NCBI RefSeq assembly: GCF_015207825.1
Contig: NZ_JADEWC010000023.1
Location: forward strand, 1-56,776
DNA from: Cyanobacterium stanieri LEGE 03274
GTDB lineage: Bacteria > Cyanobacteriota > Cyanobacteriia > Cyanobacteriales > Cyanobacteriaceae
Direction: 5' to 3'
Length of the DNA: 56,776 bases
Part shown: positions 38,433 through 39,703 of the stretch, one piece after another
Position numbering within the stretch: position 1 is the first letter of the stretch
Layout of the letters: every line of letters begins with the position of its first letter
Translations under genes and position numbers: made by a program
Notes under the pieces: generated by a model
Seen by the model: the letters and a program-made list of their open reading frames with translations, nothing else
Told to the model about the DNA's origin: nothing
The model's database searches: none

Positions 38433-38465
38433 AATAGGTTGGAAAGTCAAAACAATATATTAATT

Positions 38466-38535
38466 TGGCTCAAGCCGAAGACAGCAGGAGCAATAATGCT
38501 TAAAAAATTCCTGCCTAGGTTGATGCAGATACTTA
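38466..38535 (+). promoter_or_regulatory. Ribosomal protein L10 leader (autoregulatory mRNA element)
   Basis: The sequence has the hallmarks of the L10 leader: GCCGAAGACAGCAGGAGC, then a loop and the pairing partner TTCCTGCCTAGGTTGATGC. The stem CAGGA/TCCTG closes it and the AAGAC-type internal loop is the kink-turn-like L10-binding feature. In many bacteria L10-L12 bound here represses rplJL translation or promotes termination. An intrinsic-terminator-like hairpin follows at 38604. Confidence 0.8.
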
Positions 38536-38603
38536 TAAAAGGTAAGATTCTTTCCCTAGAATCAAACCAACTATATTAAAAATTATCTTATAAATCATCA
38601 ACC

Positions 38604-38640
38604 AAAAACCCGGCTAGAAATAGTAAGGGTTTTTTATTTT
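38604..38640 (+). terminator. Attenuator-type terminator between the L10 leader and rplJ
   Basis: AAAAACCC pairs with GGGTTTTT around a 15-nt loop and is followed by TATTTTTAAG. It lies about 75 bp before rplJ and 70 bp after the L10 leader core. It is therefore placed to act as the regulated attenuator of this operon rather than as an end-of-gene terminator. Confidence 0.6.
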
Positions 38641-38713
38641 TAAGTCGGTTCATGGCAATGATTGAATAAAACTCAACCACTGTCCAAACCACAAAAATTA
38701 AACACCTCAGGAG

Positions 38714-39259
38714 GTGAGAACAATATCTAAATCCCTTGAAAGCAAAAAGAAAGAAGTAGCCGATCTTAAAGGTTTACTCGCTGAATCTCAACTAGCATTA
38801 GTCATCGATTATCAAGGGCTTAGTGTTGCTGAAATTAGCGATTTGCGTAATCGCCTAAGAGAAAAAGGCGGTACTTGTAAAGTGACCAAAAACACTTTAA
38901 TGGGTAAAGCCATCGAAGGAGACGCAACTTGGGAACCCATGAGTCAATTTCTCAGCGGTTCTTCCGCTTTTGTTTTAGCAGACGCAGAAAACCTCGGCGG
39001 TACAGTAAAAGCCTACCAAGCATTCCTCAAAGATCGCAAAAAAAGCGAGTGTCGTGGCGGTGTAATGGAAGGCAAAGCCCTTACCAAAGAAGAAGTAAAA
39101 GCCCTAGCTGACTTACCCACCAAAGAAGAGCTTATCGGCCAGATTGCTGGTTCTATCAATGCTATCACTGCGAAAATCGCCCGTAGCATTAACGAAGTTC
39201 CTAGCTCCTTGGCTCGTGCGGTGGATGCCGTTAAATCCCAACAAGAAGACGCAGCCTAA
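38714..39259 (+). CDS. rplJ: 50S ribosomal protein L10; start codon apparently AUA at 38723
   Basis: L10 anchors the L7/L12 stalk on the large subunit and represses its own operon through the leader. The product shows LAESQLALVIDYQGLSVAEI, LREKGGTCKVTKNTLMGKAI and the helical L12-binding C-terminus IARSINEVPSSLARAVDAV. The longest frame starts with GTG at 38714, but that codon overlaps the strong Shine-Dalgarno AGGAGG at 38709-38714 and has no site of its own. Eight bases after that AGGAGG comes an in-frame ATA at 38723. Alignment by memory with the usual cyanobacterial L10 N-terminus puts the initiator Met exactly there. No ATG, TTG or second GTG is available. A real AUA start, or an ATG changed by error, are the options. 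Confidence 0.95.
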   Translation: MRTISKSLESKKKEVADLKGLLAESQLALVIDYQGLSVAEISDLRNRLREKGGTCKVTKNTLMGKAIEGDATWEPMSQFLSGSSAFVLADAENLGGTVKAYQAFLKDRKKSECRGGVMEGKALTKEEVKALADLPTKEELIGQIAGSINAITAKIARSINEVPSSLARAVDAVKSQQEDAA

Positions 39260-39319: not shown

Positions 39320-39703
39320 ATGTCTGATAAAGTAGCAAATATTGTTGAAGAATTAAAAACCCTAAGTCTTTTAGAGGCTTCCGAATTAGTTAAACAAATC
39401 GAAGAAGTATTTGGCGTAAGTGCCGCCGCTCCCGTTGGTGGAATGATGATGGCCGCTCCCGCTGCAGCAGCTGGTGAAGAAGCTGAAGAAAAAACTGAAT
39501 TCGATGTTGTTCTCGAAAGTTTCGGCGATGCTAAAATGGCTGTTCTTAAAGTCGTTCGTGGTATCACTGGCTTGGGCTTAAAAGAAAGCAAAGAGTTAGT
39601 AGAATCTGCTCCTAAAGCTATTAAAGAAGGTACTAGCAAAGAAGACGCTGAAGCTATCAAGAAACAGTTAGAAGAAGCTGGTGCGAAAGTATCTATCAAA
39701 TAA
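39320..39703 (+). CDS. rplL: 50S ribosomal protein L7/L12
   Basis: L7/L12, 127 residues, forms the flexible stalk that recruits translation factors. The N-terminal dimerisation domain reads [20 protein letters not shown], an Ala/Gly/Met-rich hinge ([19 protein letters not shown]) follows, and the C-terminal factor-binding domain has [20 protein letters not shown] and the conserved [20 protein letters not shown]. Length and domains are normal. TAGGAG precedes the ATG. The gene lies 60 bp after rplJ and ends in a cluster of hairpins that close the operon. Confidence 0.98.

Follow-up and report, generated by a model that had tools for sequence, protein, structure and literature searches.

The window, by which we mean the whole analysed stretch of 56,776 nucleotides from Cyanobacterium stanieri LEGE 03274, carries an operon in the order L10 leader, rplJ, rplL, as in other operons with the RF00557 leader. 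The features of the locus are as follows:

38457-38645, plus strand: L10 leader RF00557 (cmscan 55.9 bits, gathering score 44)
38703-38716, plus strand: inverted repeat CACCT-CAGG-AGGTG, which would cover the Shine-Dalgarno sequence (SD); weak, with similar arms in most genomes of the family
38709-38714, plus strand: AGGAGG, consensus SD, read from the letters
38709-38717, plus strand: extended SD AGGAGGTGA, complementary to the 16S 3′ end over nine unbroken bases
38714-38716, plus strand: in-frame GTG within the SD, judged not to be the start by comparison with other rplJ genes
38715-38722, plus strand: spacer between SD and ATA, 8 nt
38723-38725, plus strand: ATA, proposed rplJ start codon (comparison with relatives, SD reach, alignment)
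38723-39259, plus strand: rplJ, ribosomal protein L10 (178 aa counted from the ATA; PF00466)
39320-39703, plus strand: rplL, ribosomal protein L7/L12 (ATG start; PF00542 and PF16320)

The preliminary description of this DNA had reported AGGAGG at 38709-38714, a sole in-frame GTG (38714) overlapping it by one base, and an in-frame ATA eight bases past it, at 38723. All of this is exact by the letters, the first G of the GTG being the last G of AGGAGG. The presence of an L10 leader ahead of rplJ, also claimed there, is borne out by the RF00557 match above gathering. The rplJ frame is open from 38702, and GTG 38714 is the only ATG, GTG or TTG ahead of the ATA, which is followed by the codons TCT AAA TCC CTT GAA. 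The leader scores above gathering in 12 of 14 loci of the family; in two genomes of one genus (L009 and L010) it falls below the Rfam gathering score.

We compared this region across the family of the window's genome, Cyanobacteriaceae, where 14 of the 15 genomes searched yielded an rplJ match and the fifteenth is a 67% complete assembly. A near-cognate AUN codon stands at the homologous start position in all 14 (ATA in 12, ATT in 2), and neither ATG, GTG nor TTG occurs there. The preliminary description had suggested re-reading this codon in close relatives, and none of them turned out to have an ATG. The 14 genomes represent four genera, and both ATT genes belong to one of these. Moreover, all 14 share one layout, namely GGAGGTGAG, which is invariant, then four bases, then ATA or ATT; its conservation is more than chance.

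Elsewhere in the cyanobacteria the same codon is ATG in 69, GTG in 7 and TTG in 6 of 82 rplJ genes, which upholds the earlier alignment of the ATA with the initiator of other cyanobacterial L10 proteins. The 69 consist of 68 read directly and one (L071) that was misaligned by two codons and re-read by hand. The 82 genes outside the family were pooled from five search sets (16 + 2 + 24 + 20 + 20); 283 genomes of the class have an rplJ match, and the start codon was read in part of them. A duplicate of the window (L001) and a Bacteroidales locus (L034) were left out of the counts, two genomes (G005 and G036) gave no rplJ match in the first search, and a separate contig scan yielded three loci, two of them cyanobacterial.

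A tree built from 56 L10 proteins places the 14 family members together on one side of a single branch with support of 100/100. For this reason the loss of NTG at the rplJ start would most simply have happened once, at the base of the family. With one origin for four genera, the 14 genomes are not independent, and this counts against the AUA start.

The 3′ end of the 16S rRNA of the same genome reads GGATCACCTCCTT, with which AGGAGGTGA can pair over nine bases. GAGGTG also precedes 77 of the 82 rplJ genes outside the family. In 62 of these the GTG does not share the rplJ frame; the remaining 15 do have it in frame and still keep an NTG at the usual start position. This marks the GTG as part of the SD motif GGAGGTGA, a match to the anti-SD. 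From 3 to 20 nt past GGAGG, none of the 14 family genomes has an NTG in any frame, whereas an NTG follows at 3-14 nt in all 79 of the other rplJ genes that contain GGAGG (3 of the 82 lack it). A spacing of 8 nt is found with ATG in five genes outside the family as well. The only in-frame NTG near the family's ATA sits inside the SD, a point that would be contested by anyone who places the start at that GTG. Two family genomes carry a TAG two codons ahead of the GTG, which rules out any start further upstream in them.

The protein comparison agrees with the same codon. Three PDB alignments have no gap at the N-terminus; in them residue 1 of the chain falls on the ATA and residue 2 on the codon after it, and the full-length row that we take to be E. 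coli shows the same offset by coordinates. The organisms of the L10 rows, presumably E. coli and B. subtilis-type, were assigned from their entry codes. Some other rows are offset by 4 to 6 because of shorter or trimmed N-termini, which counts against the AUA start. The residue after the start is Ser in 12 and Pro in 2 of the family proteins and Gly, Pro, Ser or Ala in all 82 others. A small second residue suits methionine aminopeptidase; it could also come from pairing of TCT or CCT in the RNA. According to the excerpted text of PMC10192219, the L10 peptide observed in E. coli is ALNLQDK, which lacks the Met.

The small structures around the start were also inspected. In the repeat over the SD, RNAalifold keeps four pairs, three of them in 14/14 genomes (G-U counted) and one in 12/14, and there is no compensatory change. 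The same repeat (38703-38716) was flagged as a terminator-like site on the minus strand. A mini hairpin, AGA-ACAATA-TCT (38717-38728), holds the ATA in its loop, and in one genus (G006 and G009) one of its A-U pairs is changed to G-C on both sides together. These two tiny hairpins, with a consensus energy of -4.2 kcal/mol and the one compensatory pair, are too weak to interpret, and we set an RNA-structure reading aside.

An AUN-start pattern, searched against 388 genomes belonging to the class, matched in 97, and none of the 30 loci retrieved holds rplJ. When 45 matches from 34 genomes with a known rplJ place were compared by position, none lay at rplJ; the pattern requires Gly as the second codon and is not exhaustive, and the 45 and the 30 partly overlap. 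In the window's own genome, GGAGG followed by an AUN start was matched 1908 times, as compared with 1653 in the reversed control, a difference that we regard as uninformative.

As regards decoding, the genome has 39 Rfam tRNA matches, three of them with the anticodon CAU. One of these (L134) is initiator-like, with a 1-72 mismatch and three G-C pairs in the anticodon stem. No UAU anticodon was found among the 39, so AUA would be read with a mismatch at the third position. According to the excerpted text of PMC10158994, IF3 in vitro selects for Watson-Crick and G-U pairing at the third position and against mismatches, AUU/CAU being one example.

We also looked at the starts of other genes of the translation machinery. 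Among 25 ribosomal-protein genes of the S10-spc-alpha cluster in the same genome, 24 start with ATG and one, rplC, with GTG; rpoA in this cluster also begins with GTG. Here the start is the first NTG of the frame, and the gene names are our assignments, based on gene order and N-termini. In infC, some cyanobacteria have ATG-CCT-GTG, while others replace the ATG by ACG, ACA, AAG, GAA or ATA; most genes without that ATG keep the GTG, while L155 has GTA there. The family itself has AAG, AAA or ACG at the ATG place, and the GTG two codons on remains (the comparison is a reading of the alignment, and six of the 30 infC loci were missed by the motif). In the window's genome, infC has GGAG 16 nt before this GTG, and IF3 itself may start at a GTG with a poorly spaced SD.

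Taken together, the comparison suggests that translation of rplJ in this family very probably begins with fMet at AUA, or in one genus at AUU, a near-cognate codon that lies 8 nt, counted from AGGAGG, after a nine-base SD. AUA initiation of rplJ, the main claim of the preliminary description, gains good support from the conserved ATA/ATT, from the lack of an NTG within SD reach and from the N-terminal alignment; initiation at the codon itself stays a prediction from these comparisons. A simple error, ATG read as ATA in sequencing or assembly, could be carried by a single draft contig, and is ruled out by ATA or ATT in 14/14 genomes of four genera, so that practically nothing speaks for it. A special initiator tRNA that reads AUA by Watson-Crick pairing would account for the codon. 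It was rejected as highly improbable, since no UAU anticodon was found among the 39 tRNA matches, the initiator-like gene has CAU, and the genus with ATT would not fit.

The main competitor, which we consider unlikely, is an SD-independent start at the in-frame GTG 38714. L10 would then begin with Met-Arg-Thr-Ile-Ser-Lys, and the ATA would be an internal Ile codon. GTG is a canonical codon and the forced choice for any gene finder restricted to NTG. It is in frame throughout the 14 family genomes, at a constant distance (9), and the codon after it always encodes Arg (AGA 12, AGG 2); both facts count against the AUA start. In that case, however, GGAGG would abut the start codon with a spacing of 0 and be useless to it, yet GGAGGTGAG is invariant. 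L10 would also exceed the B. subtilis-type rows by three N-terminal residues. The family's infC can be read both ways. It shows that an ATG can be lost and a GTG two codons on be kept; at the same time its lost ATG appears to have drifted to AAG, AAA or ACG, whereas the rplJ codon stayed ATA or ATT. A further possibility, slightly less likely than the GTG start, is that both codons are used, most L10 starting at AUA and a smaller part at GUG. Both are in frame and conserved, but the SD helix serving the AUA covers the GTG, and the alignment has no second invariant SD-like block upstream.

Codon use bears on the same question. If the ATA encoded an internal Ile, then Ile would be ATA in 12/14 here, in contrast to 5/257 at the other Ile codons of the family's rplJ and rplL (4/171 and 1/86, respectively). 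rplJ has four further invariant Ile columns, with ATA in 0/56; all of them mix ATT and ATC, one in a ratio of 13 to 1. The background in the window is higher, with 227 ATA among 1306 Ile codons of its 34 long ORFs. Counted by genus (ATA in 3 of 4), p is ~3e-5 if the rplJ/rplL rate is taken as background and 0.018 with that of the window. In favour of the GTG start, ATA is commoner at codons 2-10 (29/132 Ile codons) than later (588/3726) in 141 ORFs of the genome, with the first NTG taken as the start. An ATA as codon 4 after a GTG is therefore not as unusual as it looks from the gene-wide figure; with codons 2-10 as background, the fairer null for such a codon, the genus count gives p 0.035. 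Codon identity at the ATA column ranks only 22nd of 78 invariant columns, which again counts against the AUA start, and synonymous constraint at the rplJ 5′ end is slight (mean codon identity 0.68 at 6 early codons and 0.56 at 72 later ones). We regard the bias toward ATA as supportive, not decisive.

Near-cognate starts as such are a known kind, as infC and ccpN illustrate, and the gene concerned, rplJ, is the new part. Among the matches listed in the open-licence PMC literature, none describes rplJ as starting at AUA or AUU. To judge from reference titles in PMC9845219, E. coli infC starts at AUU. In S. aureus, infC starts at AUA with a predicted extended SD; starts at AUA or AUU that have an extended SD reach about 10% of AUG expression in reporters, and the AUA start of ccpN up to 30% in rich medium (all from excerpted text of PMC13009471). 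The proposed rplJ start resembles that of infC in having an AUN codon with a third-base mismatch in a gene of the translation machinery, and shares the extended SD with S. aureus infC. It differs in that it belongs to another gene, one which sits behind the L10 leader, and for rplJ IF3 discrimination would be a prediction. Similarly, ccpN (AUA) and cvfC1 (AUU) of S. aureus combine a conserved near-cognate start with an extended SD. They encode a repressor and a small protein, whereas rplJ encodes a core ribosomal protein, and their starts were shown by profiling and reporters, as far as the excerpted text of PMC13009471 describes them, whereas that of rplJ is proposed from comparison. From other RF00557 operons the locus differs in that the 82 other cyanobacterial rplJ genes begin with ATG, GTG or TTG.

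If initiation does occur at the AUA or AUU codon, the strong SD pairing would hold the 30S subunit in place and make up for the mismatch at the third position against the initiator tRNA's CAU. Since residue 2 is Ser or Pro, L10 would then lose its Met. By analogy with the AUA and AUU starts of S. aureus, initiation of rplJ would be weaker than at AUG, with the nine-base SD compensating. A start of 10-30% of AUG strength would be odd for an abundant protein.

A weak start may tune the output of L10, both beneath the leader and in proportion to L12, of which there are several copies for each L10. According to the excerpted text of PMC6021402, L10 binds four or six L12 in the bacteria named there, which makes a weak rplJ start before an rplL ATG reasonable. 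Outside the family, weak starts were seen in 4/42 rplJ and 0/42 rplL genes, a difference that is not significant (Fisher p 0.12; the rplL starts were read by eye). An AUA or AUU start would also be expected to make L10 synthesis sensitive to IF3, and the suggestion of the preliminary description that AUA acts as an added brake on L10, as in infC, is plausible by analogy. That the family fixed the near-cognate start as a control, IF3-sensitive, keeping L10 below L12 and adding a translational layer beneath the leader, is a tentative proposal and somewhat doubtful.

It is worth stressing that gene finders restricted to ATG, GTG and TTG cannot call the AUA start of rplJ. One would hardly expect so rare a type of start in a gene that encodes a core component of the ribosome. 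If the AUA start is true, an essential and abundant ribosomal protein would be made from a weak start that was fixed once and kept across four genera. The family would then offer a natural case of an extended Shine-Dalgarno sequence carrying a poor start codon, and possibly of IF3-linked control outside infC.
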